Source: Prevotella sp.
GTDB lineage: Bacteria > Bacteroidota > Bacteroidia > Bacteroidales > Bacteroidaceae
Assembly (NCBI GenBank): GCA_017524385.1
Contig: JAFWSS010000103.1
Span: forward strand, 1-33,433
Reading direction: 5' to 3'
Length of the DNA stretch: 33,433 nucleotides
The translations under genes and the position numbers were made by a program. Each line of letters starts with the position of its first letter. The first letter of the stretch is position 1. Positions 2,698 through 27,476 of this stretch are shown one piece after another. The notes below the pieces were generated by a model, which ran no database searches, was not told where the DNA came from, and saw only the letters and a list, made by a program, of their open reading frames with translations.

Positions 2698-2700
2698 ATC

Positions 2701-2777: not shown

Positions 2778-2824
2778 CAGGTGGTGGAGCGAAGCGTAAC
2801 CCCTGCTTGACGATGAAATGAAAT

Positions 2825-3411: not shown

Positions 3412-3557
3412 GATAACTTGCTAAATGACAATTATATATAAAACATTATGATTTTCGTATTTGAATGGATCCCAAGATTGATTTAAGTAGAACATCCTGG
3501 CGGGTGCAAGACCTGCCCGGATAATTTCTAGGGAAGTTTCGGCTTTGGGTTCTATGA

Positions 3558-3616
3558 GCAAGTGGAGGTCTTAGTAGCAAGAAGGAGGTCTTAGTTGCAA
3601 GTAGGAGGATTTCTGG
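3558..3616. repeat. ~20-bp tandem repeat, three degenerate units
   Basis: Three units beginning GCAAG: 3558-3576 (GCAAGTGGAGGTCTTAGTA), 3577-3596 (GCAAGAAGGAGGTCTTAGTT) and 3597-3616 (GCAAGTAGGAGGATTTCTGG). The first two are nearly identical and the third has drifted in its second half. No associated gene. Confidence 0.8.
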
Positions 3617-3749
3617 GGCACTCTGGTGTTAGTGCGGGCACATGCCTCGCAGGTGTGGCCCACCGTACAATTCTGGCATATTTTCCTGTAAAAAAAACGG
3701 GAAAAATGATAAAATCGTTACAGTTGAAAACGAAAAAAGGTTGATTTTG

Positions 3750-3779
3750 TTTGTTTAATAGGATTTTTTACTATTTTTG
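3750..3779 (+). promoter_or_regulatory. Promoter of the BspA-like/giant-protein operon
   Basis: TTTG at 3750-3753, an 18-bp spacer and TATTTTTG at 3772-3779 fit the Bacteroidetes promoter consensus. The predicted start near 3786 gives an untranslated leader of about 147 nt before the ATG at 3933. No other convincing promoter was seen between here and 25626, so it is the best candidate to drive all four genes. Confidence 0.6.
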
Positions 3780-3932: not shown

Positions 3933-5093
3933 ATGAGAATGAGAATACGATTACACACTATTGGCATGTTGTTGTGCCTGTTGTGCTTTTGCACCCAGGC
4001 CACGGCACAGGATTTTGAGTACGAAGATGAAAACCAGACCATCATCGAAGGTCTGACGGAGGTGGGACGCGCCCAGAGGTCGCTCACCATCCCCGCCAAT
4101 GTGACGACGGTGCGCAATGGTGCGTTATGGGGCAATTACGTCTTGGAAGAGCTGCATGTCGAAGGCGACACAGACTTCGAGCCTGCCGACGCTGGTGAAA
4201 CGGGCACCTTGTGGGACGTCAAGGGCACCTTGAAAAGAATCGACATGGGCAGTGCCATGTCGGTAGATCATATGAAGACACTCCTGTTGAGTTATGGCGA
4301 GCGTGATGAGAACGACCTGTTGGGAACCATAGAAATCGGCGCCCTTTCCGACTCCGTCTACTGGGGTGGCGACAACGAACACCCCATCAACAACGTGCTG
4401 ACAAAGGAGGTGAGCGTCATCCTGCCAGCCGCCATCGTCGGCAACCAGGTTTTCGGCAAAGCCAAGGTCTATGGTCGTTTCGACCACACCAACGAGTTGA
4501 CCACCTTCTGCGGCAATGCCACGTTCCAGGACGTGGACGACGGTTCCAACTGGCTCTTCTACATCCCCACCGAATTGCGGCCAGCCGACAAGCAGGTGTA
4601 CATCAAGCGCGTCTGGGTGCTCAAGGCCGGCTGCGGGGTGCTCGTCCACAAGGCGGAGAACTCCGCACCTTATGTCGACGTGCTGCGAGTGAATGCCGAC
4701 GAGGTGGGCTATGCCGGCATGGAGGAAGACTACGGCAACAACATGCTGGTGGGCGTGACAGAGCCGACGCTGATAGGCGAGACATCGGGCGCCAACGATG
4801 AATACACCAACATGATCCTCTACCAAGGGACGTTCCGCCGCACGTCGGGCGGCACCCTGGGCGCCAACCGCGCCTATCTCCGGGTGCTGACCTCCGAACT
4901 TGGCAACCTGGGTTCAGACGCCAACCTGTCGCTCACCTACGAGGATGACATTCCCGATGCCATCCAGACCGTCCCCGGCGTGCAACGGAGCGGAAAGGAA
5001 ACATGGTTCTCCATCGATGGCCGCCGGCTTCCCGGCCGTCCCACCCAGCCAGGCCTCCACCTCCACGGAGGGAAGGCCGTTGTCGTCCAATAA
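3933..5093 (+). CDS. Secreted BspA-like protein with Prevotella-type C-terminal tail
   Basis: A 386-residue exported protein. Residues 1-26 form a signal peptide (basic MRMRIRLH, hydrophobic LLCLLCFC, cleavage after TQATA-Q). Residues about 38-80 (GLTEVGRAQRSLTIPANVTTVRNGALWGNYVLEELHVEG) read as one or two BspA-type leucine-rich repeat (LRR_5) units. The middle (about 100-330) has no family I recognise and looks beta-rich. The last 30 residues (WFSIDGRRLPGRP ... GLHLHGGKAVVVQ) match the short tail that ends both giant proteins downstream, a pattern common in exported Prevotella proteins and resembling the end of type IX sorting domains. It is the first gene of the operon; the next start lies 8 bp after its stop. 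BspA-like proteins often mediate adhesion, but that role is inferred here. Confidence 0.75.
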   Translation: MRMRIRLHTIGMLLCLLCFCTQATAQDFEYEDENQTIIEGLTEVGRAQRSLTIPANVTTVRNGALWGNYVLEELHVEGDTDFEPADAGETGTLWDVKGTLKRIDMGSAMSVDHMKTLLLSYGERDENDLLGTIEIGALSDSVYWGGDNEHPINNVLTKEVSVILPAAIVGNQVFGKAKVYGRFDHTNELTTFCGNATFQDVDDGSNWLFYIPTELRPADKQVYIKRVWVLKAGCGVLVHKAENSAPYVDVLRVNADEVGYAGMEEDYGNNMLVGVTEPTLIGETSGANDEYTNMILYQGTFRRTSGGTLGANRAYLRVLTSELGNLGSDANLSLTYEDDIPDAIQTVPGVQRSGKETWFSIDGRRLPGRPTQPGLHLHGGKAVVVQ

Positions 5094-5101
5094 CAATCTC
5101 C

Positions 5102-5314
5102 ATGCCGATGAAAACGAAAAAGAGATATGAGCGTCCGCAGGCCGAAGTAGTCTGTATTTCGCCGTTTATGAACTCCTACGACCCGGAAGGAGAGTCCGGG
5201 CTGGTGGGCTACAACTCAGACTCAAAACTCGACGCCTCCTTTGGAGAGAGCAACACGTCAAGCTGGGACGATGCCGAGCCAGGCGCCGCCAGCAAGTCCC
5301 TGTGGGACGAATGA
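5102..5314 (+). CDS. 70-aa conserved-type small protein in giant-protein operon
   Basis: A small gene 8 bp after the BspA-like gene and 62 bp before the first giant gene, same strand. The product (MPMKTKKRYERPQAEVVCIS ... SKSLWDE) has no signal peptide. It has a basic first ten residues, a short RPQAEVVCIS beta-like stretch and then an acidic, Ser/Gly/Asp-rich low-complexity tail. The K-K-[RY]-x-x-P-x-x-E-V-V-x-I opening recalls small uncharacterised Bacteroidales proteins of the form KKYEKPxxxVVxI, often found near exported-protein genes; their function is not known to me. The open frame extends upstream to 5003, but that part overlaps the preceding gene in another frame, so ATG 5102 (or 5108) is chosen. 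Tight spacing suggests translational coupling. Confidence 0.65.
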   Translation: MPMKTKKRYERPQAEVVCISPFMNSYDPEGESGLVGYNSDSKLDASFGESNTSSWDDAEPGAASKSLWDE

Positions 5315-5376
5315 CCAGCCTTTAACCTTGGATCCCACCTCCCATATATTCTAAGAAAAAACAAAACCACAAGCAT

Positions 5377-8300
5377 ATGAAAAGACGAATCCTACGTTTT
5401 TCACCCCCGCGGGCCTTGGTCATCATCATTTTGATGTCCTTCCTGCCAGGTTTTTCGACCGCCCTTCATGCCGACGACATGAAGAAGTCGAAATACTATA
5501 CCATGACGAGTTACACCGACCATTTGAACTTCTCGGTGCTTCTCACCGACCTTAGCTTCAAAAACACGTGGGCGAAGGATGGCTACATCAAGGCCGTCTC
5601 CGGTAGTCAGACATACAAATTGGTGACAGTGTATACCAAGGAAATGTCAAGTGACAACAACGAGAACTACAACGTCTTCGCCAACAACGAGTTGCAAGGT
5701 GGCATCGCCTACCTCTCCAATGCCAGTGGAGGCGCCAAGATGCTGAGCTACTCCAATGAGCAATTCTGGGTGTGGAAAGGTTCGGACAACGACCTCACCT
5801 ATGCCAAGATCGACTACTACTATCCACCAGAGTTGGCCAACAAGACATGGACTTTCTACTACCACTACCAGCACAACAACGGCAGTTGGTATGACATGAA
5901 GCTCGGCTCCGCCTATTGCAGTCCCACCATGGGGCTGAAAGGCTTCGATGCCAACGACTTCACCATCGAGCGCACCGATGTGCGCAAGATGGTCGTGACG
6001 CTTCCCGCCCTTCCCGACGACGTGCCGGTGGCCTTGAAAGAAAACCGCAAGCACGTAGGCAAGTATGCCTTCACCTTCACCTATCACCTTTACGATGGCG
6101 GTACGAAGTTGCAGAAAGAGTCTTACGACTGCGAGACGATGACGGAGAAGACCTACAATGTCGACATCCCCCTGGAGGCCGCCAATTTCAAGAGCGTAGA
6201 CATCAGCGCCGACATCCAGGACGCCCTCTATTGCATCGGGAGTGACTCCTATTTCTGGAACAACAACTCCAATGTCACGAAGAGCAACTTCTTCCCCTCC
6301 GTGCCACAACCGGAAAACCTCAATGCGGAATACCTGCAGTTTGACCGCAAGGTCGACCTGGCCTGGCAGGCCTTCCACGACTACGGCAGCGGATACCAAT
6401 ACATCGAGGCCACCGTGCCCTACGTCTACCGCCTGGAGACCGACCGCAACGGCCAGAAGTTATCGGGCGAGAGCTGGAGGCAGGTCACCACACGTCCCAA
6501 CATCGGGACGACGCAGGAGCAGGCCATCGCCGACAACAGCGTGGACCCCAACAAATATTACAAATACCTCATCCTCAACGTCCCCAGGGCATGGGCAGGA
6601 GAGGGTGTCATCAACGACAGAGAGCTTGAAAGTCCCTCCGAGAGCATCATCGACATGCTGGGGCACGCGGAGTCGAACATCGTCGACACCCATCCCACCA
6701 TGGACATCTACGGTCTGGAGCAGGACCTCAGCGTGGAAGACAAGGTGGTGCTCAACTGGCAATACTCCCGTGTGCCGGTGAGTGCCAAGACCGTGAGGTT
6801 CCAACTGCTGAGACGGCTCGCGGGTACGAGCAACTGGGGCGAACTCGCCACCGTACAGGGTGACGCCAACCCCGCCTCTGGCAGCAAGTTGTCGTACTCC
6901 GACAACACCATCGCCAACAACAGGGTGAGATACGACTACAAGGTGCAGCTCTCCATCAACGACAACGCCAACCTCTTCGAGAGCGACGCCATCACCGCCG
7001 GCGTCATCGCCGGTTCCACCGTCACCGCCCTCGACGCCACCAAGGGGCAGCATACCGACCTCGTGCGCGTCTCGTGGAAGGTGAAGCAGGTGGGGACAGC
7101 CAACACCAACTTCGAGCTTTACCGCCGCTATGTGAACAGCGGTGGCGAGTTCATGAAAATCCACGCCGTCAGCGGCACCGACGCCAGCTACACCTATGAG
7201 GACAACACCGCCCAACCCGGCTACTACTACGAATACAAGATAGAGGCTTACGCCGGCGACAAGGACTCCTACGACGACACCTCCTACCAGAACGCGCTCA
7301 CCGCCGTCGGCTTCTGCCAGTCGACAGGCGTCATCTCCGGACGCGTCACCTTCGGTTCGGCAGGCTCGTCGGTGGAAGGCGTGCGCCTCACACTCCGCGG
7401 CAGCGACACCGGCGAGGGAGGCGACATGCAGCAGTTCTCACAGCGTGTGAACGGTGCCTCCACGGGCATCCAGTGGGTGGCCGACTCGGCGGAGGTGGCC
7501 AAGCTCTTCTGTGAAAAAGACTACACCGTGCAACTGTTTGTCAGGCCTGACGAGAACCTTTCCGAAGGCGCCGTCATCGCCGAGATACCCGATTTCGGCC
7601 GCCTGCGTCTGGGCAGCAAGGTTGATGATGGATACAAGCTCTATGTGGAGAAATTCTCCGACCCTTCCATGACGGAAATGACATTCACCGATTTTTGGAG
7701 GACGGAAGGGGTCATCATCGATGTGCGAGCCGAGGAAAAAGGTGAGCCAAATTACTATTGCGACCTCTATGACACCTATGTCTATACTACTGAAGAAGAA
7801 GTCCAAGCCAAGCGTGATGAAATAAGGGCAAGATTGGATAGCATCTCAAACAACAGCCGTCATAATGGCGCTTGGATTCCCGACATCTATGGGAAAACTG
7901 ACTATTACATGTCCTTGATTCACATCATCCAGCCCCTTGAAGAACCCATATCGCTGAAAACAATGACGTGGAAGGGCAAGACGTTTGACTCAGGACTCAC
8001 CATTCCTTCCAATGTCTATTCTTTGGTAACACTGCAAAACAGTGAAGGTGCAGCAGTGGTTTCCGTTGGAGACAGCACGGCAGCCGTCGTATTGCAGTCT
8101 CCCCTTTCGACAAAAGACTATACCTCAATCGTCGGCGGAGAACTCGACCCCAAATATCATATTTATGAAAACAGGTGTCTCTATACGGTCGACGGGGTGA
8201 ACGTTGCCGCCTTGATGGCTTTTTACTCAAATACGCCAGTTCGTACATATTGCTTCCCCACCACGGGTACTGCATTCGACTATTCCACCAACCATATGAT

Positions 8301-11300
8301 CAATCATTTCTCCGTGGGTGGAGCAACCGGCATGGAAGACGCCGAGGCCTTCCACGGCAACCTCTGCGAGGTGCGTGTCTGGGACCACGTCCTCACCGAC
8401 AAGGAGCGTGCGAACACCAACGACCGCATCCTCAGCGGCAACGAGACAGGCTTGAAACTCTACTGGCCCATGAGCGAGGGCATCGACCGCCTGGTGGTAG
8501 ACGCCTCACTCTCCAACGACGTGCTCAACGGCCGTCATGGAACGGTGGGCGCCAACATCAAGTCCTCGACCATCGTTCCGTCGGACAACATCCTCTCGCG
8601 TTACGCCGTCACCAACAACAACGGCGAGTACACCCTGAGAGGCATACCGTTCATCGGTTCGGGAAGCACCTACACCATCACCCCGACGAAGAGCATCCAT
8701 GTCTTCTCGCCCACCTCTCGCAACGGCTTCGTCAGCGGTGGAAGCATGACGCTCAACAACTACGACTTCACCGACCAGTCGTCGTTCACCGTCCGTGGCA
8801 AGGTGACCTACATGGATACCAACATCCCCGCCGACAGCATCATGTTCAAGGTCGACGGCACCATCGCGCAGAAAGGCAACAAGCAAGTGATGACCGACGC
8901 GAACGGCTTGTATGAACTCAGCGTGCCCATCGGCAGCCACAGCATCGAGGCATACAAGGAGGGCCATGTGTTCAGCCGCTTCCCCTCCGACGGTGTCGCA
9001 TACGCCTTCTTCCAGGATGAGACCATCAACTTCTTCGACTCCACGCTCGTCAATGTCACCGGGCGCATCAACGGCGGTTTCACCGACAAGGATGCACCAC
9101 TCGGCTTCCGCAAGAGTGTCAACCGCCTTGGCAAGGCCACGCTGAAACTCAGCCTGGGCAAGGAGTCGCAAGCCTCGTTCAACTACATCATCGACAAGGA
9201 CGGAAACGGGGAGTTCGGCACGAACCCCATCCCCGTGAAGAGCGCCACCGACAACATCCACAGCACGGCCTACCGTGCCGGCGGCTCTCTCGACGACACC
9301 TATTACATATATATCCATACCGACTCCCTCACCGGAGAATTCTCAGCCATGCTGCCACCATTGAAATACGTGGTCAACAGCATCACCTTCGATGGCGGCA
9401 ACGACTACGACAACGAGCCGGTGTTCAAGGACAACCTGCCCGTCATCGACGCCACCAACACCATCAAGGAGCAGATGAAGTGCGACTCCTTGGAGGAAGC
9501 GAACGCCAACCAGCAATACTACTACTATTCGGCCAAACTCATCCGGCAGTTGCGCACCACGCCCACCATCACCGTCACCCAGAACGACATGGAGAACGGT
9601 GCGTTTGGCGAGCGCAGCATTTCAGTGCGCGACGACATCACATGCGAGCCGGAGAACGTGCCGGTGCTCAACATCACCGAGACGGGCTACGAATACCTCT
9701 ATGGCCACCCCATCTTCCAGCAAGGCAAGCCCTATGAGTTCACCATCCGTGTCAGCGAGCAATACAAGAACCTTGACTCGGAGGAGATGCACAAGGAAGT
9801 GCCGCAAGACGCCGTCGTCAGCATCACCAACGAGGCCAGCACCACGGCAGCCACCATCGTGGCACAAGTGTCGCAGTTGGACGGCAAGGAACTGCAGCCG
9901 GGAGACGTCTTCGACGTGGACAACATCGACGTGTTGTCCGACGAGGAAGGCAAGGTGGGCTATGGATGGGTTGCCGGCTTCCCCAACCCGGCTCCCGGGT
10001 ATATCCGCAACCTCACCATCAGCGTCAACGTCGACGGGCGAACCACCATGTGGCATGCCCCCGACTCTCACACCGACGCCCTCGATATGGTGGTGACGGG
10101 TGGCCTCACTACGGGAAACAACTTCGTCACCGGAGCCCCCGACCAGGTCGACATGATCCTCAGGCGCCCGCCGGGCAGCACCGCTTATGCCCAATGGAGC
10201 AACGACTCGGTGCATGTCAGGACGAAGACCACCACCACCACGTCGTCTTACTCCTTTGGCGGCGGGACAAACATCACCTTGACCCCGACGATAGAGTATG
10301 AAGTGTTGGAGGCAACCGTCTTCAAGAAGAACAAGAACCGTTTCATCGCCTTTGACAACCAGGAGCGTCGCAACAACGCCTACGACGACATCGAAGTGGA
10401 GAAGCAGCAGAACTCCTATTCGGTGTCCACCACGATGAAGACGCCTTCCGGGAGCAAATACGTGCAAAACAACGGCGACACCTATATCGGCCGGGCTTCC
10501 AACCTCTTGTTTGGCAAGGGACGATTCGTGGGACTCATCAAGCAGGCCGACGGCTCCTACAAGCTGGGCGACAAGTCAAGCATTTGCACCAGCTTGTCGT
10601 TCAAGACCACCTTCGTGCTGCCCCAGCAGTATGTTATCGAAACGCTCATACCCAACTGGAAGGCCATCATCAAAAACCACCTGCACTGGGTGCCGGAATA
10701 CAGCGATGCATATTGCAAGGAAGTGGAAGGAGAGGTCAGATACTACACACGCCTGAAGGAGGGTGACTATGGCTATGGAAGCGCCAACAGCGACGAAAGC
10801 GTGTGGAGCCCTGAACAGCACCAGGCCGCCGGCGGTCATCCTTCCTATCTCATTGTAGACGGCACGCACAGCAAAGCCGAGGAATTCACCGACTCCATAG
10901 AGTGGGCCAACCAGCAAATCAGCGCCTGGGAGCAGACCATTCGCAACAACGAGAAGGACAAGCTCAAGGCGTTCAACGACGAAGGCACTTACAAGATTGG
11001 CAACTTCAGCATCGCCTCCGGGACGATGGTCAGCCAGTCCACCAAGGAGACGATAGTCAAAACCGAGGACCTGGAGCATACCAAGACCTCGTGGAACATC
11101 TCCAGTGACACGAAGTTGGGCGCGACATTCAACGACATCGGCGTAGTCGGCATATTCAACTATGTCAATTCCGGTAACACCGAGACCGTGCTGACGGAAA
11201 GCATCACGCAGACCCGCGGCACTACATGGCAGATCAGTGACGCCTCGCCCTTCTCGGCCTTGTCCGTGGATGTCTACACGTCGCCTTCGGGATGGGGACC

Positions 11301-14300
11301 CATCTTCCGCACGAGAGGCGGACAGACATGCAATCCGTATGAAGGAGCCACCTACACGAAGTATTACATGAAGGGTGAGGAGCTCGACAAGGCCACCATG
11401 CGCGTGGAGAATCCCAAGCTCAGCGTCGTGGGAGCCGCCGAAATCTCCGATGTCCCCACCGGCACGAAGGCGATGTTCGTATTGGAATTGACCAACGATA
11501 GTGAGACCAACACCACCGTCAACTATGTGTTGGAAGTGCAGGAAGGCTCCAATCCCGACGGCGCCATCCTCACCATGGACGGCCAGCCCATCGGCAATGG
11601 CAAGACGGGGCGCACCGTGCGCCTTGCCGGTGGCGAGAGCATACACAAGAACCTTTATGTGGAGCAGTCATCCACCGGCATCGTCGACTACGAGAACATA
11701 CGCCTGGTGCTGCGCTCGGAGAGCGACGTGAGCACACAGAGCCCCCCCGTGGTGCTAAAGGTGCATTTCGTGCCCTCCTCAGCCACCGTGGCCATCAGCG
11801 TGGACAACACGGTGCTGAACATGAAATCCTTTGAATTGAACAGGGGTGTCATCGTCACCGTCTCCAACCTGAACAGGCAAGACCCGGGACTCAAGGGAAT
11901 GCGCATACAATACCGCAAGAAGGGTCTCGACACATGGTCGTTGGCCAAGGAATGGAAGGTGAACCCGGGAGAAGGCGAGACAAGGTTGCCCGATGGCAAG
12001 TTCTTCACCGAGAAGGTCAGCTTCCTCGACGACGGCGTGTATGAGTTGCGCGGGCAGACCTTCGGCTACTATGGTTCGGAAGGCTCCACCGAGGTGACCT
12101 ATGCCACAGACATCATCGAGGTGACACAGGACCTGCGAGGACCGAAGATCCTCGGCATCCCCTATCCCGAATGGGGACTGTTGACGTATGACATCCGCAA
12201 CCAGATGCATGTGCGTTTCAATGAGACCATCAACACCAACGCGATGAGCAAGTCGGAAAACTTCCGCATCGTGGGCAATATCAACAACGCCGTCACCGAC
12301 GCCAAGGTGCCCGACGTGGCATTGCAGCTCAACGGCGACGAAATCACCACACAGTCCACTTACCAGACGGGGAGCAACGACCTCGCCGTCGAAGGCTGGA
12401 TCTACCGTCAATCAGATGGCACCATCGTCAGTATTGGTACTGAGGACAACATGCTCGAACTATACACCAGGGAGGACGGCAAGATCACGGCACGAATAGG
12501 TGAGCGGGATCACATCTTCGAGTCGGATGCCATACTGCCTCCCAACATCTGGAACTACATCGCCATGAGCCTGCAGCTTGACCCGGAAAACCAAGGCAGG
12601 AGCCTCATCAGCGCCATCTACGTCAATGCCGACATGGAAACCCCGGCCTACATCGTGAAAGACCATCCCGTCGTGGTGTCGCCGGGAGAAGGAAAGCTGC
12701 AAGTCGGCGGCAATGGCATGAAAGGCATGATGCGCGACCTCGCCATCTGGAACTCCAAGAAGTCTGTCCTGCAGATGTATCAGGAGCGCAACGAGTTGAA
12801 AGCCAACTACACTCCGGGTCTCATCGGCTACTGGCGCATGGACGAAGGTCACGGCACGACCCTTGTCGACAGGATACGTTCGTGCAACATGGTCATGCCG
12901 ACGGAGAGTTGGTATATCAACAACAAGAACCTCGCTACCCATCTCGATGGCTCGGATTGCATGAAAATCGACGTGTCCACCTTCATGCCAAGATCGACAG
13001 ACAACTTCGCCGTGGAATTGTGGTTCCGTTCCGAAAGGAATGATGATTATGAGGAATTGCTGGATCTTGCCAATGGCATGTCTGTGAGGCTCCAAAATGG
13101 CTGCATGATGTTGTGCAAAACAATTCTGTCCGATGTGGGAGTCATGTCTGAAGGATTGGAATTGACCAATGTCGATTACAAGGACAACCAATGGCACCAC
13201 TTCGCATTGAACGTGCGCCGTGGAGCCAACGCCATCTTCTATGTTGACGGACAAGCTGTCAAGACGATCCCTGAAAGCGAGATTCCCGTGCCTAATTCGC
13301 AATATTTCAGCATAGGAGACAGATTCAAAGGCGACATCGACGAGATACGCATCTGGAATGCCGCGCTGACGGGCAACCTCATCGCCGACCGTCGTTACGA
13401 GCGTCTTGACAACTCCTATGGAGGACTGATCGGATACTTCCCCATGGAGAGGATCCATCGCAATGAGAGTGGGAATGTGACCACCAGCTACACGATGGAA
13501 AACCTCGGAGACACCACTATCGTCAGACTGGAAATCGTCAATGCCAACAAATTCTCCCAAGCCACCAACGCACCGGCATTGCTGCCAGGGTCGCAAAGGT
13601 TGACCTTGGATGAAAACGAGTTCTACTACGTTGCTTCAGACGAAGAGATTTACTTCTCGTTCCCCGACAACATGCTGCCACGCATGGACGGCAATGAGTT
13701 CACCGTCACCGTTTCCAACATCAAGGACCTCCACGGCAACAACTCCGAGCTTGTAGAATGGAAGGTCAAGGCCGACTTCGCCCTCTTGGGATGGGACGAT
13801 GAAGGCATCAAGGATATCGTTTACGACAGGTCGAAACCCATGGAAATAAACGAAACATTGTTCAACATGTCCTCAAAATCCCAACCTTACGAGATATTGA
13901 ACCTGCCGACATGGCTTACCGTCCGCGATGCAGTAGGGACATGCTCCAACAATTATTTTAACACCATCAAGTTCACACTGCTCCCATCGGCTCCCATTGG
14001 CACACACACTCTCTTCATCTACGTATCCGACGCCAATGGCATCAAGCGCAGCATTTGCCGGAGAATCACTGTGATAGGAGACGAGCCCGACTGGGTGGTC
14101 ACTCCATCACTGTATGAGGGCAGCATGGCCATGGTGGGACAGCTTTATGTCGCCGACAAGATCTGCGAGAACCCCCGTTCCAAGATTGCCGCCTTCGACG
14201 ACCTCGGCACCTGCCGTGGAGTCGCCCATCCGGAGTACATGGGCACACGCGACGCCTACTACCTGAACATGTATGTCTACGGCAACTCCTCGTCAGACTA

Positions 14301-15498: not shown

Positions 15499-15528
15499 TT
15501 GCTCCATAACATTCAACATGCTTCGATT

Positions 15529-18500
15529 ATGAAAATCAACATGACATACCAAGTGAGAATGGCAGCCCTATGCTTGTTGCTCGCGCTGACGGCAGTACCG
15601 TTGCACGTGCGTGCCGACGACATGAAGGAATCCAAGAACTTCTGGATGAACAAGCATTCCAACTACATGACGTTCACCGTCCTCGTCACCGACCTGCATG
15701 CCAAGAACACCTGGGCCAAGGATGGCTACATAAAAGCCTATGACAACCAGAACCGGTCGGGAACGCCCATCACCCTGCTGCGCGTCTACACCAAGGACAT
15801 GGGCAATGACGAGGAACCCCTCTGGGAGGTGTTCGCCAAGAACATGGTCAGGGGGTCGAAGGCTTTCATGCAGAACACCATCCCCATGGGCGACGCCGAC
15901 CCCCAGGGGACGTTGAGAATGGACGAGACGACCTTCTATGTCAACAAGGGCAGCGGCGCCAACGACACCTACGCCATCATCGACTACTATTACTCGCCCG
16001 AACTGGCGGGGAAGACGTGGTATTTCTATTATGAATACGAGCACAACTCCAGCGGTAGCAAGGTGATGAGCCTCGGCTCGGCCTACTGCTCGGAAACGGT
16101 GGGCTGCTCACATTTCGACACGATGGGCTACGAGCTCAAGCGCATCAACATGAACACCATCGAAATGAAGCTTCCCGCCATGCCCGACGACATCGACCAG
16201 AAGCTTCAGGATGTGCGCAAGCATGTGGGGCACTACGACCTTTCCATCAGCTACACCCTCTTCGACGGCACCGTCAAGACACAGGCGGCGGCCTTCGACT
16301 GCCAGACGCTCTCGCCCACGACGGCCAACATCACCATACCCTCCGAAGCCCGCAACTTCAAGACCATAGACATCACGGTCGACGTGCGTGAAGCCTTGGA
16401 GGCCGATGGAGGTGCCTGCTTCTGGGACGAGCGGAAGACATGGGACCTGAAGAACGCCTTTCCCCACGACCCTCAGCCCAGCAAGCTGGGAGCCGACTTC
16501 CTGCAGTTTGACAACAAGGTGGACCTCACTTGGAACGCCTTCACATTCGTGGAGGGTCTCGAATACATCAAGGCCGCTTATCCCTACGTCTACAGGATAG
16601 AGACCGACCAGTATGGCACTCCCAAGTCGGGACAGACATGGACCAAGCGCGACCAGCTGTCGACCGTCGGCGAGACGCAGCACAGGAGCTACACCGACCA
16701 GAACGTGGCCGCCGATGGGAAATACTACAAATACCTGGTGATGAACGTGCCGAAAGAATGGGAGAACAAGGACGGGCTCAGCGCCCAAAGCCTGCAAAGT
16801 CCTTCGGAGGAGACCATCAATTCCTTGGGACATGCCTTCTCCAATGTCGTCTCGGCCGGAGCCCATGTCAGTATCTACAACTTGAAGCAGGATGTCGCCG
16901 TCAAGGACAAGGTGAGGCTCACGTGGGAGTATTCCCGCGTGCCGGGCAATTCCAGCACCGCCTCGTTCGAGGTGTGGCGATGCATCACCGGCACGTCCAA
17001 CTGGGAAACCTACGCCACGGGCATCATGGGCGAGTCGAACCCCAAGGCGGGCTACACCCTGGCCTTTGTCGATGCCGACCTGCCCAGCAAAGAGATGACT
17101 TTCGACTACAAGGTGGTGCTCAAGCTCAACGGCGGGAAAGACCAGTTTGAAAGCAACGTCGTGACAGCAGGACTGCTCACCGGCACCACCGTCACCGAGC
17201 TCACCGCCACCAAGGGCACGCACGACAAGGTGGTGCGTGTGGCATGGAAGGCCAACCAGGTGGGTACGTCGAACAGCACCTTCGAGCTCTCACGCCGCTA
17301 TGCCGGCACCAACGACGAGTTCCTCACCATCTACAACACCAGCGGCACCAGCGACAGCTACACCTACGAGGACAACTCTGTGCAGCCGGGACGTTACTAT
17401 GAGTATCAGGTGAAGGCCTTCTCTGGAGACAAGGAGCGCCATGAGGACAACAACTTCCAGAACATGCTTTTCGACACCGGCTTCTGCCAGGCGAGGGGCG
17501 TCATCACCGGGCGCGTCACCTTCGGCACCAGCGACACCGCCGTGGACGGCGTGCGGCTCACGCTCCGCTCCAGCGAAGAAGGGTCGGACAACCAAGTGGG
17601 CAGTTACTCGCAACGCATCAACGGTGTTTCCACCGGCATCACATGGGACGCCGACTCCGCCGAGTTGGCCAAGGTCTTCGGCAATGACAAGGATTACACC
17701 CTCCAGCTGTTCCTGCGTCCTGACTCCAGCCTGAGACAGGGGGCCGTCATCGGCGAAATCCCCGGATATGGCAGAATCAAGACCGGCAGCTACGCCGACG
17801 GGAAATACGACATCCTCATGGAGGAACGCACGGAATACGAGGACACGTACACCTTCAATGTTGTGAACCATTGGCGCCACGTGCTGTATTGGGCGGACTC
17901 AGGCCGACAAACCGGCACCTTGGATGGAGAGTCATGCTACAGCAGGAATGAAATGGAGCAGGTGGTCAAGCCATGGCTTGAAGAAGGTTATGTGCGTCTC
18001 GGCAGGGAAAACACGCACAACATATATGGCAGCGGGGCTTTCATCGGCCTTTACGTGAAGAAAGAGACACTCTCCCAGCCCGTCGTGGTGGGAAAAAGCG
18101 TCCATAAGACCAGTCTTTACCAATCCAACGTCAGCGTCCCGGCCAACGTGTTCTCGCTCTTGTCGCTGCAGTCGAGGAAAGGTGTCGTGGGCATCAGTTC
18201 CAACGACAGCTTTTCCGATGCCTTCACCCTGATGTCCGAGGATGAGAAAACCGAGGAGTTTGGCACCGACTTGCCTGGCTATCAGGTCGTCGGCGATTTC
18301 CTGGTGTCATTCGATGGCTCCTACAGCACCTACTTTGACACCTATCCCCAAGTCATACAGAACAACAGCGAAGGTTCGGGGATACATCACACGACTCCGT
18401 TCCATCATGCGATGACCCCATTCTCGCTTGGCGGCACCGTCGGCATGGAAGACACCGAGGCCTTCATAGGCAACGTCACCGAGGTGCGTGTGTGGGACCA

Positions 18501-21500
18501 TGTGCTCACCGACAAGGAACATGCCTCCAACGACGACCGCATGCTGGGTGGCCGCGAGACGGGACTCCTCCTCTACTGGCCCATGGACGAGGGCATCGAC
18601 CGACTGGTTTACGACGCTTCCTATGCCAGCGACCAGCCCAACGGGCGACACGCCGTTGTGGGAGCCAACATCAGCGTGTCGACCATCGTGCCTTCCGACA
18701 ACCAACTCTCACGCTATGCCCTGACCACCACCAGCGGTGAATACACGTTGAGAGGCATCCCCTTCATCGGTTCGGGAAGCACCTACACCCTCACCCCGGC
18801 AAAGAGCATCCATGTGTTTGCGCCCACTTCGAGAAACGGTTTCATCAGCGCCTCCAACCTGACGCTCAACAATTACAACTTCTCCGACGAGTCATCGTTC
18901 ATCGTCCGGGGCAAGGTGACCTATCTCAACACCAACATCCCCGTCGACAGCATCACCTTCAAGGTGGACGGTGTGATAGCAGAGTCGAAGAAAGGCTCCG
19001 TCATGACCGACTCGAAAGGCGAGTATGAGATCAGCGTGCCGATAGGAAGCCACACCATAGAAGCCTACAGGGAAGGACACAAGATCAACACCTTCCCGGT
19101 GGATGGCACGACGTATGACTTCAGGCAGTCGGAGGTGGTGGACTTCACCGACTCCACCTTGGTCAATGTCACCGGCCGCATCAATGGCGGCTTCTCCGAC
19201 ATGGACGCCCCGCTGGGCTTCCACAAGAGCACCAACCGACTGGGCAAGGCTGTGGTGACGCTGAGCATCGGTCGTGAGGCGATGAGTTCGTTCAACTATG
19301 TTGTCGACTCCCATGGCGACGGGCGCTTCGGCACCCAGCCGATTCCCGTGGCCAGCGCCACCGACAGCATCAAGAGTGTTGCCGTTCGCGCTGGAGGCGC
19401 CCAGGACGAGACACGGTTCATCCACATCACCACCGACCCTCAGACAGGCGAGTTCTCCGCTATGCTGCCCCCCTTGAAATACAAGGTGGAGCGCATCACC
19501 TTTGAGAGCGGCAAGGACTATGATGAAGAGCCTGTGTTCAAGCAGAACCTGCCCATCATCGACGCCACCAACACCACGCTGACCGGTATGAAGCAAGACT
19601 CGTTGGTACTGGATACGAAGGAGGTGAAGCGTTATCCCTATGTCGCCAAATTTGTCAGGCAGTTGCGCTCCGTTCCGAGTATCGATGTGTCACAGAGCGA
19701 CATGAGCCATGGAGGATTCGGAGCCACGGGCATAGAAGTGGCCCTCGAAAACGGCTCAAAGGAGAATGTGCCTGTGATGAGAGACGAGGAAGGGGGACCG
19801 ACCTACCTTTACGGCCATCCCATCGTCGTGCAGAAAGATTCCTACACGTTTGACATCCATGTGGCGGAGAAATACAAGAACCTCGACACCGAGGAGACTT
19901 TCGAAGAGGTGCCCGAGGATGCCGTTGTCAGCATCATGAACAACGCCAGCCTCTCCACCCTGGTCATCGGCAAGGAGTGCGTCGTAGAAGGCAAGACCAT
20001 GACGACCGGCCAGGTGTATGACGTGCCCAACATCCAAGTGAAGCCCGACAAGGACGGAATGGTGAGGTACACCTGGACGGCAGGTTGGCCCAACCTTGCC
20101 GAAGGCTTCCTGCGCAACCTGAGCATTGGAGTGAAAGTGGACGGCCGCACAACGATGTGGAAGGCCCCCAACTCCACCACCGACGCCCTCGACCTCGTCG
20201 TGCTGGGCGGCATACCCACCGGCTCGAATTTCATCACAAGGGCTCCCGACCATGTGGACATGGTATTGCGAAGACCCCCGGGGAACACCTCCTCCGCCAC
20301 GATGGTCACCGACACCGTATACAACTATTACCATATGGAAAGTTCCTATGACGGCAATGGCGTTTTTGGTGGAGCGTATGTCAACCTGCTCCCCACCTTC
20401 AAGGTGGCTTCAGGACCCATCGCTTTCCTCATAGGCACCACGATGCGTCCGTATGCGGAGGAGACCTTCAAGGCTACTGCTTACAATGAGAATGACGAGA
20501 AGGAGGACTCCACATATACCTACACGGTAAGCACGACGATGAAGACACCGTCGGGAAACCGCTACACCCAGAACAACGGCGACACCTACATCGGACGAGG
20601 TACGAACATCCTCTTCAGCAAGGGAATGACCGTGGGACTCTTCCGCCAGGCCGACGGCTCCTACCAACTCGACACCAAGGAGTCGGTATGCTTCTCCAAC
20701 GAGTTCACCACCACTTTCGCATATCCGCAACAGTATATCGAAGAGGTGCAGATTCCCAATTGGAGAAGCAAGGCAGAAAGCCTGTTGACCGAAGTGGAAG
20801 GCGACCTCAGCCAGGATGCGGTATGCCCCATCGTCCCGGGAAAGGTGATGTACTACACCAATTTGAAGAAAGGCGACCCAAGGCGTGGCACACGCAACAT
20901 CGACCCTTGCTGGACGGATGCCGAGCGTGAAGCGGCAAACAGATACCCGTCCTACCGCATGGTGTCGGGACTGCCTGAAGACGTGACCGAGGTCACAGAC
21001 AGCATACAGTGGTGCAACAACCAAATCGATGTCTGGAAGCAGCGCATCGCCGACAACGAAAGGGAGAAACTCGAAGTCTTCGAACAAGACTCTTGCTTCA
21101 TCAGCAACTACAGCATCGCCGGCGGAACATCTGTGAGCCAAACCGTCAAGAACAGCGCCTTGGTAGATTTCGACAGCCATACGGACAAGAAGTCATACAC
21201 CGTCTCGCTGGAATTGCACCCGATGGGCAACATGTGGAACAATGCCGGAGGATACACCATCCTCGGATGGAACTGGAAATGGGGCTCCGCGGCGACAACC
21301 ACCACAAGCCGGACGGAATGCTCACAGTTCAGTTGGACGCTCAGCGACTCAGAACCCACGTCGGCCCTGTCGGTGAATGTCTATAAGTCGAACCAGGGCT
21401 GGGGACCCATCTTCCGTACCATGGGAGGACAGACCAGCAACCCATACGAGGGAGCCACCTATACCAAATACTTCAGAGAGGGCACCGAACTCGACAAGGC

Positions 21501-24500
21501 CACCATGCGCGTGGAGAATCCCGTGCTCACCGTAGATGGCGCCAACACCGTCAGCGACGTGCCCACGGGAGGAAAGGCGAAGTTCATACTGAGCATGACC
21601 AACGACAACGACGTGAACGTGTCGGCCACCTATGTGCTCGACGTGCTGGAGAACAGCAACCCCAATGGCGCCATACTGACCATCGACGGAGCCATCCTTT
21701 CGAAAGGCAGTGGTGGAAGGGAGATCAAGTTCCAGTCGGGTGAGACCATCAAGAAGACACTCTATGTGGAGCAAAGCAGCAGAGACATCATCGACTATGA
21801 GAACATAGGGCTCGTGTTGCGCTCAAAGAATACGTATTCCACCACGAGCACCCCCGTTTACCTCAACGTGCATTTCGTGCCGGCATCCGCGCTCGTGGAG
21901 ATGAGCGTGGACCACACGGTCCTGAACAAGGAATTGTTTAAGAAAAACAAGGGCTTCATCGTCACCTTGACCAATCTCGACAGGCAGGACAAGGGGCTCA
22001 AGGGCGTGCGCATACAGTATCGTAGAAAGGGCTTGGACGCATGGATCCTCGCCAAGGAGTGGAAGGTTGCTCCTGATGCCGGTGAGGACGGCATACCAGA
22101 GGGGGAGAACTTCTCGTGGCCAGTCTCCATGACCGACGACGGCATCTATGAAATGAGGACTCAAACCTGGGGGAATTACGGCCCCGACGAGGTAACCTAC
22201 GAGACCGGCATCGTGGAGGTCACCCAGGACCTGAACGGGCCGCAAATACTCGGCCAGCCTTATCCCGACAATGGCGCACTGTCGTATGTCATGCGCAACG
22301 ACATGCATATCCGTTTCAACGAGGACATCAACAGCAATGCTTTGAGCAAGTCGGACAACTTCCGCATCGATGGCAACCTGAACAATGTCGTGAACACCAA
22401 GACCCGTGACGACGTGGCCTTGCAGCTCAATGGTGAAGCCTTCTCCACGCAGGCGACATTCGATATGAATGAAAACCACTTGGCTTTGGAGGCATGGTTC
22501 TATCGCCAGCAGGATGGCACCATTGTCAGCATAGGAACGGAAAACAATGAATTCGCACTCATGACCCATGACGGTGGAAAACTGGCCGTGCGTGTCGGGT
22601 CCAACGACAACGTAGTAGAACTGAATGGAAACCTGCCGGCGAACATCTGGAATTTCATCGCCATCAGCATCGACCGTGAGGAAGGAGAGGCAACGGGATT
22701 GTTCAATGGCCTTTTCATCAACGCGGGCATCGACTACCCGTACTTCTTTGCCTCGAATGTACCCGTACCAGCCATGAGTGGAACAGGAAAACTCCATGTC
22801 GGAGGAGACGGCATGGTGGGAAGGATGCACGACCTGGCCATCTGGAACATCCAGAAGTCGGTGAATGACCTTTACGTGGCCAACATGGAAACGAAGTCCA
22901 GTTTCACTCCCGGCCTCATGGGCCATTGGAAAATGGATGAAGGACACGGCACGACCGTCGTGGACCGCGTTCGTTCGCGTGACATGGTGTTGCCGGCAGA
23001 GAGTTGGTATATCAACAACCGCAACCTTGCAGCCCACCTGGAAAACGGCGAACCACTCCAAATCGACATCGCAGCGTTCGCACCCCGCAACACAGACAAC
23101 TACTCATTGGAGTTCTGGTTCCGTGGCAATAATGTCGAATCCAACAAGAAAGCCACCTTGCTGCAAGTCGACAACAGACTCAGGCTGGGCTATGACAACG
23201 GCGTGATGGTTCTCACCACATACGAAGACCCGGGGATGGGCGAAGTGAACAGCAAGCCGATAAGTACGTTCCTTCTGTCAGAAACCAACTACAACGACAA
23301 CCAATGGCATCACCTGGCACTCAATGTGAGAAGGGGCACCAGCGCCATCGCTTACATTGACGGCAAGGATGTCAAGACCATGCCTGAAGACCAAGTGCCG
23401 CCCATCAGCGGCAGCAGGCTGCTTGTCGGAGGAGGCTTCACTGGCGACATCGACGAGGTGAGAGTGTGGAATGCGGTGCTCACAGGAGAAATGATTGCCG
23501 CACGGCAATACGAGCGCCTCGACAGCACCTACGCCGGACTGATAGGCTACTTCCCCATGGAGAGCATCCATAGGGACGAGAATGGCACTGTCGTCACGGA
23601 ATTCTCCACGGAGAACTTCGGCGACAACTCCCAGCACGACAACCTCAGGGTGGTGAATGGCGAACTGTTAAGCCAGGCCGCCAGCTCACCTGCGCTGCTT
23701 CCGGGTTCGCGCCTCATGCGCCTGAAAGACACTGAATTCGACTTCTCTGTCTCAGACCGTGAGATCTACATCTCCTTCCGTGATGAAATGCTTCCAAAAA
23801 TGGACGGCAACGAGTTCACCGTGACCATCAGCAACATCAAGGACAGCCATGGCAACATCTCCGACCCCATCGTGTGGAAGTTCGATGCCGAATTCGCCAT
23901 CATCGAATGGGGCAGCCCGTCGGCCACTTTCATCAAGGACCGTACGGAAACCAAGGTCATCGAGCTCCAACTCTACAAATTCAACACCGGTTCTGAGGAC
24001 TATGAGATACAGAACCTGCCCACATGGATCACGACAGAGTCGAAAATCGGCTCCATGTCGGAAAATGTAGAAAACCTCGTTTTCACCATCCTGCCATCGG
24101 CGCCCATGGGCACGCACACCGTCTATCTCTACGTGAGCGACAAACTGGGCATCACAAGGACCACGAAGCTGGAGAGCATCGTGACGGGCGACGACCCGAA
24201 CTGGAATGTCGATCCCAACCTTTACGAGAGCAACATGATCGTCATCGGCCAGCTCTACACGGGTGACAAGGTGTGCGAGTATGAACGCTCCTACATCGCC
24301 GCCTTCGACCACTTGGGCCAATGCCGAGGCGTGGCTCATCCGCAGTATGTGGAATCGCGCGACGCCTACTATCTGAACATGAACATCTACGGTGCCTCGA
24401 GCACGGAAATCAGCACGGGCAAGCGCAGGCTCACCTTCAAGATGTATGATGCGGAGAAGGGCATCATCTGCCCGCTCGTGCAAATCACCATGCCCGACGG

Positions 24501-25626
24501 CACGGTGGCCGACACCTTGGGCTACTCCCACGAGTCGCTCTATGGCACCTACGACCAGCCGGTGCTCTTCAAGGCGAAGGATGCCGTGGAGCAGTTGGCC
24601 AAGTTGGAGCGTGGTTGGAACTGGAAGTCGATCTATGTCCAGACGCCAAGCACCGCCATCGCCGATGTGATGCCCAAGGAGATTTCCAACGTCAACAACA
24701 TCCAATATGTGAAGAGCCATGAATCCTTGGCCACGACGAAGGGCGGTGCCTTCTATGGCGAGTTGACAGACCTCCACCCGGGAGAGATGTACAAGATACA
24801 GGTCAAGAAAGACATGACCTTGAACATCGTCGGCTCGCCCATCGACGTGGCTACCACGTCGCAGACGATACACAACGGCTACAACTGGATTGGCACGCTC
24901 TCCTCTGAGGTGATGTCGCCCGCAGTGGCCTTCGCCGACCTCAAGCCTGAGAAGAACGACATGGTGAAGAACCGTACGGGCTTCAGCATGTACAGGGGCG
25001 ACGGCGTTTGGGAAGGTGTGTTGCAGAGCATCATCCCGGGCGAGGGATACGTCTACCAATCCATGGCGAAGGGTGACAAGACCTTCCACTATCCCAAGTT
25101 GGGAACACAGTCGGCTCACAGTCCGGCATACCATGCACCAGAGGCGCCGCACCGGTCGCCGGCCGTGCATTACCTGCCCGTCGACCCCTATGCCTTCCCC
25201 GACAACATGAACGTGGTGGCCGTGGTGGTGTGCGACGGCCAGCGCATAGCCGATGCCGAGGTGGCGGCGTTTGTCGACGGTGAGTGCCGCGGGGCCATCC
25301 GAGCCAACGAGGGTAGCGAATACTACTTCCTCACCATCATGGGCTCGTCAAGAGACGATTTGGACCATGTGGTGGAACTGCGCGTCTTCGCCGACGGCAC
25401 AGAGTATGTCGTTGACCGCAAGAACACGTTTGTCAACGACAATGTCCTGGGCGACCTTGACAACCCCTACGTGCTCGACCTCGATGAGGCCTCCGGCATC
25501 AAGGCGGTCTATGCCGACGACCTCGACGACGACGGTTGGTACACCCTGCAGGGTGTCAAGCTGCCGCACAAGCCACGCTTCAGCGGCGTCTACATCCACC
25601 ATGGCGAGAAAGTGGTGGTGAAATAA
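15529..25626 (+). CDS. Giant exported LamG/carboxypeptidase-regulatory-like protein 2
   Basis: About 3365 residues, a full-length paralogue of the preceding gene, collinear throughout and similar in every domain. Start chosen at ATG 15529 (MKINMTYQVRMAALCLLLAL), 30 bp after the upstream stop; the frame opens at a TTG at 15499 directly after that stop, but the signal peptide needs only the ATG. Cleavage near VRA|DDMKE gives the same mature DDMK start as its partner. Regulatory-like domain about 656-730, LamG 1 ending near 1060 (EVRVWDHVLTDKE), regulatory-like 1123-1190, conserved-motif region about 1585-1990, LamG pair 2297-2470 and 2508-2680, Ig-like stretch, two A-x-F-x-x-x-G-x-CRG modules and the tail GWYTLQGVKL ... 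GVYIHHGEKVVVK. It differs from protein 1 mainly in two cassettes (see findings). The last gene of the operon, ended by the terminator at 25642. Function inferred as surface binding. Confidence 0.85.
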   Translation: MKINMTYQVRMAALCLLLALTAVPLHVRADDMKESKNFWMNKHSNYMTFTVLVTDLHAKNTWAKDGYIKAYDNQNRSGTPITLLRVYTKDMGNDEEPLWEVFAKNMVRGSKAFMQNTIPMGDADPQGTLRMDETTFYVNKGSGANDTYAIIDYYYSPELAGKTWYFYYEYEHNSSGSKVMSLGSAYCSETVGCSHFDTMGYELKRINMNTIEMKLPAMPDDIDQKLQDVRKHVGHYDLSISYTLFDGTVKTQAAAFDCQTLSPTTANITIPSEARNFKTIDITVDVREALEADGGACFWDERKTWDLKNAFPHDPQPSKLGADFLQFDNKVDLTWNAFTFVEGLEYIKAAYPYVYRIETDQYGTPKSGQTWTKRDQLSTVGETQHRSYTDQNVAADGKYYKYLVMNVPKEWENKDGLSAQSLQSPSEETINSLGHAFSNVVSAGAHVSIYNLKQDVAVKDKVRLTWEYSRVPGNSSTASFEVWRCITGTSNWETYATGIMGESNPKAGYTLAFVDADLPSKEMTFDYKVVLKLNGGKDQFESNVVTAGLLTGTTVTELTATKGTHDKVVRVAWKANQVGTSNSTFELSRRYAGTNDEFLTIYNTSGTSDSYTYEDNSVQPGRYYEYQVKAFSGDKERHEDNNFQNMLFDTGFCQARGVITGRVTFGTSDTAVDGVRLTLRSSEEGSDNQVGSYSQRINGVSTGITWDADSAELAKVFGNDKDYTLQLFLRPDSSLRQGAVIGEIPGYGRIKTGSYADGKYDILMEERTEYEDTYTFNVVNHWRHVLYWADSGRQTGTLDGESCYSRNEMEQVVKPWLEEGYVRLGRENTHNIYGSGAFIGLYVKKETLSQPVVVGKSVHKTSLYQSNVSVPANVFSLLSLQSRKGVVGISSNDSFSDAFTLMSEDEKTEEFGTDLPGYQVVGDFLVSFDGSYSTYFDTYPQVIQNNSEGSGIHHTTPFHHAMTPFSLGGTVGMEDTEAFIGNVTEVRVWDHVLTDKEHASNDDRMLGGRETGLLLYWPMDEGIDRLVYDASYASDQPNGRHAVVGANISVSTIVPSDNQLSRYALTTTSGEYTLRGIPFIGSGSTYTLTPAKSIHVFAPTSRNGFISASNLTLNNYNFSDESSFIVRGKVTYLNTNIPVDSITFKVDGVIAESKKGSVMTDSKGEYEISVPIGSHTIEAYREGHKINTFPVDGTTYDFRQSEVVDFTDSTLVNVTGRINGGFSDMDAPLGFHKSTNRLGKAVVTLSIGREAMSSFNYVVDSHGDGRFGTQPIPVASATDSIKSVAVRAGGAQDETRFIHITTDPQTGEFSAMLPPLKYKVERITFESGKDYDEEPVFKQNLPIIDATNTTLTGMKQDSLVLDTKEVKRYPYVAKFVRQLRSVPSIDVSQSDMSHGGFGATGIEVALENGSKENVPVMRDEEGGPTYLYGHPIVVQKDSYTFDIHVAEKYKNLDTEETFEEVPEDAVVSIMNNASLSTLVIGKECVVEGKTMTTGQVYDVPNIQVKPDKDGMVRYTWTAGWPNLAEGFLRNLSIGVKVDGRTTMWKAPNSTTDALDLVVLGGIPTGSNFITRAPDHVDMVLRRPPGNTSSATMVTDTVYNYYHMESSYDGNGVFGGAYVNLLPTFKVASGPIAFLIGTTMRPYAEETFKATAYNENDEKEDSTYTYTVSTTMKTPSGNRYTQNNGDTYIGRGTNILFSKGMTVGLFRQADGSYQLDTKESVCFSNEFTTTFAYPQQYIEEVQIPNWRSKAESLLTEVEGDLSQDAVCPIVPGKVMYYTNLKKGDPRRGTRNIDPCWTDAEREAANRYPSYRMVSGLPEDVTEVTDSIQWCNNQIDVWKQRIADNEREKLEVFEQDSCFISNYSIAGGTSVSQTVKNSALVDFDSHTDKKSYTVSLELHPMGNMWNNAGGYTILGWNWKWGSAATTTTSRTECSQFSWTLSDSEPTSALSVNVYKSNQGWGPIFRTMGGQTSNPYEGATYTKYFREGTELDKATMRVENPVLTVDGANTVSDVPTGGKAKFILSMTNDNDVNVSATYVLDVLENSNPNGAILTIDGAILSKGSGGREIKFQSGETIKKTLYVEQSSRDIIDYENIGLVLRSKNTYSTTSTPVYLNVHFVPASALVEMSVDHTVLNKELFKKNKGFIVTLTNLDRQDKGLKGVRIQYRRKGLDAWILAKEWKVAPDAGEDGIPEGENFSWPVSMTDDGIYEMRTQTWGNYGPDEVTYETGIVEVTQDLNGPQILGQPYPDNGALSYVMRNDMHIRFNEDINSNALSKSDNFRIDGNLNNVVNTKTRDDVALQLNGEAFSTQATFDMNENHLALEAWFYRQQDGTIVSIGTENNEFALMTHDGGKLAVRVGSNDNVVELNGNLPANIWNFIAISIDREEGEATGLFNGLFINAGIDYPYFFASNVPVPAMSGTGKLHVGGDGMVGRMHDLAIWNIQKSVNDLYVANMETKSSFTPGLMGHWKMDEGHGTTVVDRVRSRDMVLPAESWYINNRNLAAHLENGEPLQIDIAAFAPRNTDNYSLEFWFRGNNVESNKKATLLQVDNRLRLGYDNGVMVLTTYEDPGMGEVNSKPISTFLLSETNYNDNQWHHLALNVRRGTSAIAYIDGKDVKTMPEDQVPPISGSRLLVGGGFTGDIDEVRVWNAVLTGEMIAARQYERLDSTYAGLIGYFPMESIHRDENGTVVTEFSTENFGDNSQHDNLRVVNGELLSQAASSPALLPGSRLMRLKDTEFDFSVSDREIYISFRDEMLPKMDGNEFTVTISNIKDSHGNISDPIVWKFDAEFAIIEWGSPSATFIKDRTETKVIELQLYKFNTGSEDYEIQNLPTWITTESKIGSMSENVENLVFTILPSAPMGTHTVYLYVSDKLGITRTTKLESIVTGDDPNWNVDPNLYESNMIVIGQLYTGDKVCEYERSYIAAFDHLGQCRGVAHPQYVESRDAYYLNMNIYGASSTEISTGKRRLTFKMYDAEKGIICPLVQITMPDGTVADTLGYSHESLYGTYDQPVLFKAKDAVEQLAKLERGWNWKSIYVQTPSTAIADVMPKEISNVNNIQYVKSHESLATTKGGAFYGELTDLHPGEMYKIQVKKDMTLNIVGSPIDVATTSQTIHNGYNWIGTLSSEVMSPAVAFADLKPEKNDMVKNRTGFSMYRGDGVWEGVLQSIIPGEGYVYQSMAKGDKTFHYPKLGTQSAHSPAYHAPEAPHRSPAVHYLPVDPYAFPDNMNVVAVVVCDGQRIADAEVAAFVDGECRGAIRANEGSEYYFLTIMGSSRDDLDHVVELRVFADGTEYVVDRKNTFVNDNVLGDLDNPYVLDLDEASGIKAVYADDLDDDGWYTLQGVKLPHKPRFSGVYIHHGEKVVVK

Positions 25627-25641
25627 GCAAGGAAACCATTG

Positions 25642-25680
25642 AAAAAATGCCTGAAAGCGTGAAGCTTTCAGGCATTTTTT
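25642..25680. terminator. Bidirectional intrinsic terminator
   Basis: A perfect 17-bp stem (25642-25658 pairing with 25664-25680) with a 5-nt loop GTGAA. The arms begin with A6 and end with T6, so the hairpin has a 3' U-run on both strands. It lies 16 bp after the stop of giant gene 2 and downstream of the convergent kinase gene, and can end both transcripts. Confidence 0.93.
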
Positions 25681-25681
25681 A

Positions 25682-25735
25682 GTGGACCATGGGGACGGTT
25701 CTCGTGGACCATGGGGACGGTTCTCGTGATCCATG
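25682..25735. repeat. 22-bp tandem repeat (GTGGACCATGGGGACGGTT...)
   Basis: Two perfect 22-bp units (25682-25703, 25704-25725), each GTGGACCATGGGGACGGTT plus CTC, followed by a partial unit GTGATCCATG. GGACC-ATGGGGACGGTTCTC-type sequences are familiar as dispersed short repeats in many gut bacteria, sometimes near RAYT/IS200-like transposases; none is present here. They lie directly after the terminator. Confidence 0.9.
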
Positions 25736-26727: not shown

Positions 26728-26776
26728 TATCTTCAATTTTTATCTTCGCTGATTTTTGTCGCGACTCGGCAGAGTT

Positions 26777-27453: not shown

Positions 27454-27476
27454 CAGTGTACAAAAAGAAAAATGGT

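Follow-up and report, generated by a model that had tools for sequence, protein, structure and literature searches.

According to a published account (PMC10202324), the giant T9SS surface adhesin SprB bears a type B signal and depends on SprF, and TfsA and TfsB of Tannerella forsythia are S-layer proteins exported by the T9SS. In Flavobacterium johnsoniae the SprB gene belongs to the sprC-sprD-sprB-sprF operon, in which, as the same source has it, the giant adhesin is co-transcribed with helper genes. A second point of comparison is offered by the short-CTD cargo of Prevotella intermedia, for which PMC11969387 describes signals of 40-55 aa from the cleavage site, with Ile at +2 and the motifs B, D and E.

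The window analysed here is a stretch of 33,433 nucleotides that constitutes one whole contig (C107) of a gut Prevotella assembly (G000, referred to below as its own genome; 5.05 Mb, 272 contigs, estimated contamination 6.56%). It contains a row of four genes on the forward strand, a cluster of 22 kb, which encode P0001 (3933..5093; 386 aa), a 70-aa acidic peptide (P0002; 5102..5314) and two giant proteins of 3373 aa (giant 1; 5377..15498) and 3365 aa from its ATG (giant 2; 15529..25626). Like the SprB operon this locus would combine giant T9SS adhesins with co-transcribed companion genes. In contrast to the type B signal reported for SprB (PMC10202324), the signals of its proteins resemble the short type A-like ones, and no SprF/PorP-type partner gene occurs among the Pfam matches of the scanned portion of the window ORFs. 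Their length and motif order are the same as in the P. intermedia cargo, and giant 2 and P0001 also have its Ile following the presumed cleavage site; unlike this operon, that cargo is presented in the available part of PMC11969387 with no mention of a companion peptide. With moderate confidence, we read the four genes as a single unit of transcription that encodes a T9SS surface-protein system, comprising three putatively exported cargo proteins and a cargo-linked peptide.

Organization of the operon and its C-terminal signals

The initial annotation had described four same-strand genes separated by 8, 62 and 30 bp, a single promoter in front, a strong terminator behind and two giants collinear over their full length, all of which is borne out by the ORFs, the pattern and folding scans and the alignment. 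The last of the gaps is measured to the ATG at 15529; the giant 2 frame itself opens with a TTG at 15499, adjoining the giant 1 stop at 15498, which would give a protein of 3375 aa, and in a close relative (L058) the counterpart frame begins with an ATG immediately after the preceding stop. A scan of the whole window for the Bacteroidota-type promoter pattern TTTG-N-TAnnTTTG recovered four matches against 0.45 expected in shuffles, two of them overlapping ahead of P0001 (3746/3750..3779, forward strand) and none inside the operon. Behind giant 2, an intrinsic terminator at 25636..25685 (forward strand) has a folding energy of -29.9 kcal/mol (z -9.35), equalled by 0 of 200 shuffles; this hairpin is absent from the list returned by a simple terminator scan of the window.

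Several features flank this unit. Behind the terminator, at 25683-25727, a 23-bp sequence, possibly a mobile repeat, is present twice in perfect tandem with one base in common; four more copies of it, with 2 mismatches, are found on contigs C5 and C61. Further on, a histidine-kinase-like ORF with a HATPase_c domain and a receiver-Fis-HTH response regulator (25843-27334, reverse strand) are divergent from an efflux cluster (27423-32470, forward strand; OEP, HlyD, FtsX/MacB-like). Upstream, 986-1798 encodes a protein with a microbial-type poly(ADP-ribose) glycohydrolase domain (PF10021).

The two giants are 52% identical across 3381 aligned columns. The initial annotation had noted that LamG and carboxypeptidase-regulatory-like modules occur in exported Bacteroidetes proteins. 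LamG is confirmed in both giants, with scores above the curated Pfam cut-off, whereas CarboxypepD_reg remains below it (16.5 and 28.8 bits vs 32.3), so that we speak only of a CarboxypepD_reg-like module. Weak fn3 and Big_5 matches are additionally seen in giant 2. The core of the giants (about residues 1400-2280 of giant 2), which includes S/T-rich segments, yielded weak, scattered Pfam matches, none convincing, and searches of solved structures with giant 1 alone and with a core profile matched no relative.

As to the designation of P0001 as BspA-like, the protein itself has no Pfam match, but in its family 8 of 18 members match the BspA-type repeat LRR_5 (best E 4.6e-4). At the 17 other loci of the family, full-length identity to P0001 is 38-48%, apart from 73% at L058. 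With the BspA-type LRR surface proteins the family would share a short LRR cap, without the long LRR array of the latter, and this is followed by a conserved second domain and a short T9SS-like C-terminal signal. By eye, the tails of 3 of the 18 deviate from the signal, with a dockerin-like end in L177 and early ends in L188 and L194.

An alignment of 37 C-termini, made up of the three large operon proteins and 34 others pre-selected by pattern, places a short T9SS C-terminal signal at the ends of P0001, giant 1 and giant 2, with the consensus TGI...YxLxGxxV...KGxYIxNGKKVVxK and two invariant glycines. Counted by eye, the signal stretch spans 43 aa in giant 2 and 44 aa in both giant 1 and P0001, and by eye comparison with PMC11969387 all three display the B, D and E motifs within the 40-55 aa of short-CTD cargo. 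The presumed +2 residue is Ile in giant 2 and P0001 and Val in giant 1. Of the three tails, that of P0001 departs most from the type, being 29% identical to the first alignment row and ending in Q. The four operon proteins have no NCBIfam match at E up to 0.1, and hence none to the T9SS type A domain model, and the Pfam T9SS tail families are not matched either. Hydrophobic N-termini are apparent on P0001 and both giants, as judged by eye. The SprA/Sov translocon is represented in the same genome by a TIGR04189 SprA match on contig C60. Given the three short C-terminal signals and this translocon gene, a T9SS surface-protein operon, probably with an adhesive role, is the most likely identity of the locus; P0001 itself looks like cargo rather than an assembly factor. 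As SprA/Sov is present in 143 of 150 same-genus genomes, the presence of the T9SS is useless as a contrast between genomes and was dropped as such.

Conservation of the P0001-peptide-giant cassette

Searches of 150 same-genus genomes with the giant 2 core, scoring at most 4 candidates per genome, recovered relatives of the giants in 51 of them. These separate into a close group at 46% identity and up, found in 13 of the 150 genomes (12 plus G171, counted from a 66% fragment at a contig end), and a multicopy and diverse wider family at 37% and down, many members of which have 3200-4000 aa; the gap between the two was adopted as a boundary after inspection. At least two further giants are encoded in the genome of the window itself, on contigs C62 and C132. 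Named genomes were scanned as well, with 181 confirmed places; the best 80 were retained and make up 76 loci, many of which belong, by their record titles, to ruminant-gut Prevotella and relatives. The tandem arrangement recurs at L058/L155 and L157/L164 (each on one contig), L156 and L159. In L164 (1-3861) and L159 (2-2992), the trio of P0001, peptide and giant genes is preceded by the end of another giant, which is situated about 2 kb upstream from giant 1.

Full-length P0001 (E below 1e-100, at most 13 candidates scored per genome) occurs in 8 of the 150 genomes, namely G000, G094, G101, G116, G151, G171, G172 and G176, all of which fall within the 13 genomes with close giants (Fisher p 2.4e-10); the next-best match, at E 1.5e-31, covers the C-terminal half only. 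The peptide gene follows P0001 in all eight, and a giant comes next in six (split in G116). An additional gene is inserted in G176, and in G101 the P0001 and peptide genes adjoin on one contig with the giant on another.

The cassette formed by a P0001-family gene, a peptide and a giant is kept at 19 of 32 close giants that stand first in their row and have upstream DNA, close being defined here as at least 38% by blastp. This set derives from 51 close-giant ORFs, 40 of them with more than 700 bp in front, after removal by eye of eight that either follow another giant in the same row or are the 3' portion of a split one (L155, L156, L157, and the second giants of L058, L159, L179, L194 and the window). 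It includes near-duplicates (L178/L181, L188/L194, L171/L190 and L172/L173/L182), one 3' part of a giant (L171, whose first part has 352 bp in front) and the two loci with another giant about 2 kb upstream (L159 and L164). L189, at 42% in the named-genome scan, lies just below the blastp line and is placed in the wider family, lacking the cassette; its inclusion would make the count 19 of 33. In 17 of the 19 cassettes the peptide lies within 400 bp of the giant; the giant is split into two ORFs in L178, and an 854-aa gene is inserted in L181. Of the 13 giants that miss the cassette, three have a peptide behind them instead. Such peptide genes directly behind a close giant are seen in L171, L190, L170 and L067, and in L066 and L067 the next gene, of 458 or 474 aa, encodes a lipoprotein-like N-terminus. 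L161, whose short upstream region places it outside the 32, shows the end of a P0001 gene and a 28-aa peptide remnant when translated by eye. The P0001 profile (A5) was built from upstream genes picked by position and matches in this count by construction, because it was made from these same genes; the evidence is the full-length identity of 38-48%.

Among 35 wider-family giants of the named-genome set none has the cassette, no peptide lying within 400 bp in front, and two show a weak P0001 match. This absence is not general across the wide family, since at least four such loci of an earlier set (L083, L095, L098 and L102) have a peptide directly ahead of the giant. In a first census by regular expression, a peptide-like ORF was seen at 24 of 61 loci, a figure that includes at least one antisense false match (L098, 102-332). 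Because the cassette-bearing loci are scattered over the close-giant clade of a FastTree tree, the cassette suggests an old unit with losses.

None of the gaps in the 18 trios contains the promoter pattern, a strict promoter is found within 350 bp ahead of P0001 in six of them, and in six the P0001 stop and the peptide start overlap by 4 bp. The idea of a co-expressed surface system advanced in the initial annotation is thus strengthened by the promoter-free gaps, by these overlaps and by the T9SS signals on the three large proteins. In the neighborhood comparison that it proposed, the BspA-like gene and the peptide stay with close relatives of the giants: given 19 cassettes at 32 close giants and the restriction of P0001 to close-giant genomes in all eight instances, the objection that homologues mostly lack the small genes fails for the close subfamily. 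The fact that the close giants come with P0001 and the peptide suggests a joint function of the three.

The peptide family and its association with T9SS cargo genes

The dN/dS of the peptide gene between the window and L058 is 0.12, the lowest of the four operon genes (P0001 0.27 and giant 1 0.22, both against L058; giant 2 0.20 against L155 on the same contig), pointing to purifying selection; on the strength of this value it is most likely a real protein-coding gene. In 52 aligned peptides the Y and P of a YxxP motif near the N-terminus are invariant, the family pattern being KKxYxxP with a W near the C-terminus, and in a set of 66 the median length is 61 aa and the median pI 4.46, with a Trp within the last 20 residues in 59. 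The trio-linked peptides have a second motif of their own. No signal peptide is visible by eye in P0002, which is probably cytosolic. No Pfam or NCBIfam model covers the family, and the three matches of its profile to solved structures (E 0.19 to 1.3) were taken as chance. It is multicopy, with 16 matches at E up to 1 in the genome of the window, 32 in G103, 31 in G034 and none in G045 or G042.

Peptides in the vicinity of giants were the source of the first peptide profile. A neighbor census was then based on 67 peptides in 60 regions, chosen around the better of 91 matches (E up to 1) in G000, G034, G103 and G148; most genomes sampled in the analysis as a whole are draft assemblies. An upstream gene was found for 66 of the peptides, on the same strand in 61, and 44 of these 66 upstream neighbors end in the strict short signal. 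The same ending is seen in 1 of 66 downstream neighbors (eight of which are cut at the region edge, so that their signals could be missed) and, among other complete genes with at least 200 aa, in 0 of 96. The strict pattern was drawn up once examples had been inspected; about nine further non-matching upstream tails are signal-like by eye. Three of the 44 cases come from L244 (contig C128 of G000), where three consecutive family peptide genes share a single cargo gene in front of them, with a fourth 2.4 kb beyond. In the complete genome G148, a signal match immediately precedes 9 of 10 peptide matches with E up to 0.06, where random sets gave a mean of 0.036 and a maximum of 3 in 20000; this test is partly circular because the C-terminal profile (A6) includes six G148 C-termini found beside peptides. 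Two weaker peptide matches in this genome are not behind a signal, and only 9 of its 81 signal matches are followed by a peptide.

Order-wide, peptide matches at E up to 0.01 occur in 9 of 197 genomes, G000 included. In G256, from another family, 7 of 7 given loci out of 25 peptide matches lie behind cargo, and it is the sole exception among the eight other genomes with matches, all outside the genus, as the strict cargo test fails in G346 (0 of 5 loci), G204 (0 of 6) and five single-match genomes (0 of 5). Four of these 16 upstream tails (L293, L315, L296 and L297) are nevertheless T9SS-like by eye. Given the multicopy nature of the family and its location behind other T9SS cargo genes, the peptide seems tied to T9SS cargo rather than to the giants alone, and here most directly to P0001. 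The earlier suggestion that the small genes serve the giants accordingly survives as companionship with the close giants, and not as existence for their sake: the pair stands apart from the giant in G101, is missing from the wider family in the named set, and peptides follow other cargo.

Since cargo genes may cluster by chance or through common regulation, the operon might be an ordinary cluster of several T9SS cargo genes with an unrelated small gene carried along, as the lack of the cassette at the 35 wider giants and the pair separated from its giant in G101 would allow. We regard this as unlikely, given that the gene order is retained at 38-48% P0001 identity, that P0001 is confined to close-giant genomes, that the peptide gene overlaps the P0001 stop in a third of the trios, and that the association with signal-bearing genes is both strong and upstream-only.

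The conserved YxxP raises a different question, namely whether the peptide could be a RiPP-like precursor that bears a lasso-type leader, undergoes modification by a PqqD-like domain enzyme and is located in a cargo operon only incidentally. Lasso leaders carry YxxP, and 5 of the 52 peptides, P0002 not among them, weakly match the lasso-peptide precursor model lasso_cyano (NCBIfam NF033528; best E 0.068); the G204 peptides are leader-like by eye, and on contig C252 of G000 (L327) a 256-aa PqqD-match protein (2256-3026) is encoded about 0.5 kb from a YxxP-like peptide (3485-3670, reverse strand), possibly a RiPP-like pair in its own right. In contrast to lasso precursors, P0002 is without modification genes beside it, neither PqqD nor any other appearing among the Pfam matches of the 17 window ORF entries scanned; the tails of the peptides are acidic with Trp and not core-like, G045 has PqqD yet no peptide match, and the genes associate with cargo. 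Such a precursor role is therefore quite improbable. A linkage of PqqD with the peptides was separately considered and rejected, as PqqD presence does not track peptide copy number in 12 genomes compared. Four PqqD matches occur in G000, and only the contig of L327 also holds a peptide match.

Proposed action and biological significance

The LamG modules and large size of the giants suggest that, together with chains of Ig/fn3-like domains, they probably act as long adhesive fibers, though LamG by itself is no proof of adhesion. That they instead form a structural surface layer in the manner of TfsA and TfsB, as two paralogous giants in tandem, paired in several assemblies, might invite, is very unlikely for proteins of about 3370 aa with LamG modules and multicopy, diverse wider-family relatives, TfsA and TfsB being far smaller.

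In the mechanism favored here, P0001 and the two giants would be exported by Sec, whereupon their short C-terminal signals would be recognized and SprA/Sov would convey the cargo to the cell surface for anchoring, with the giants as long adhesive fibers and P0001 as a co-displayed partner. The peptide would be translated from its gene immediately following that of P0001. Peptides of this family, which occur with some of the T9SS cargo genes, would most likely act on the cargo before export or on its expression. It is conceivable, and offered only tentatively, that they represent a new class of T9SS accessory factors, cytosolic peptides that pilot, hold or regulate their own cargo, with the trio subfamily dedicated to the P0001/giant system. 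If so, each peptide would be encoded behind its own cargo gene, and the version with the second motif would be specific to this surface system.

The T9SS exports many surface proteins of the Bacteroidota, with 80 cargo proteins predicted in P. intermedia (PMC11969387) and 81 signal matches in G148. Neither the peptide family nor any peptide partner of T9SS cargo is described in the titles and abstract openings of the literature searched, a scope outside which most subscription papers and bioRxiv fall. The unannotated, multicopy peptides directly behind some cargo genes are thus a concrete candidate for such a partner that can be tested by knock-out, and the conserved P0001-peptide-giant cassette delimits a surface system that, among the genomes sampled, belongs chiefly to Prevotella-type assemblies from the ruminant gut.
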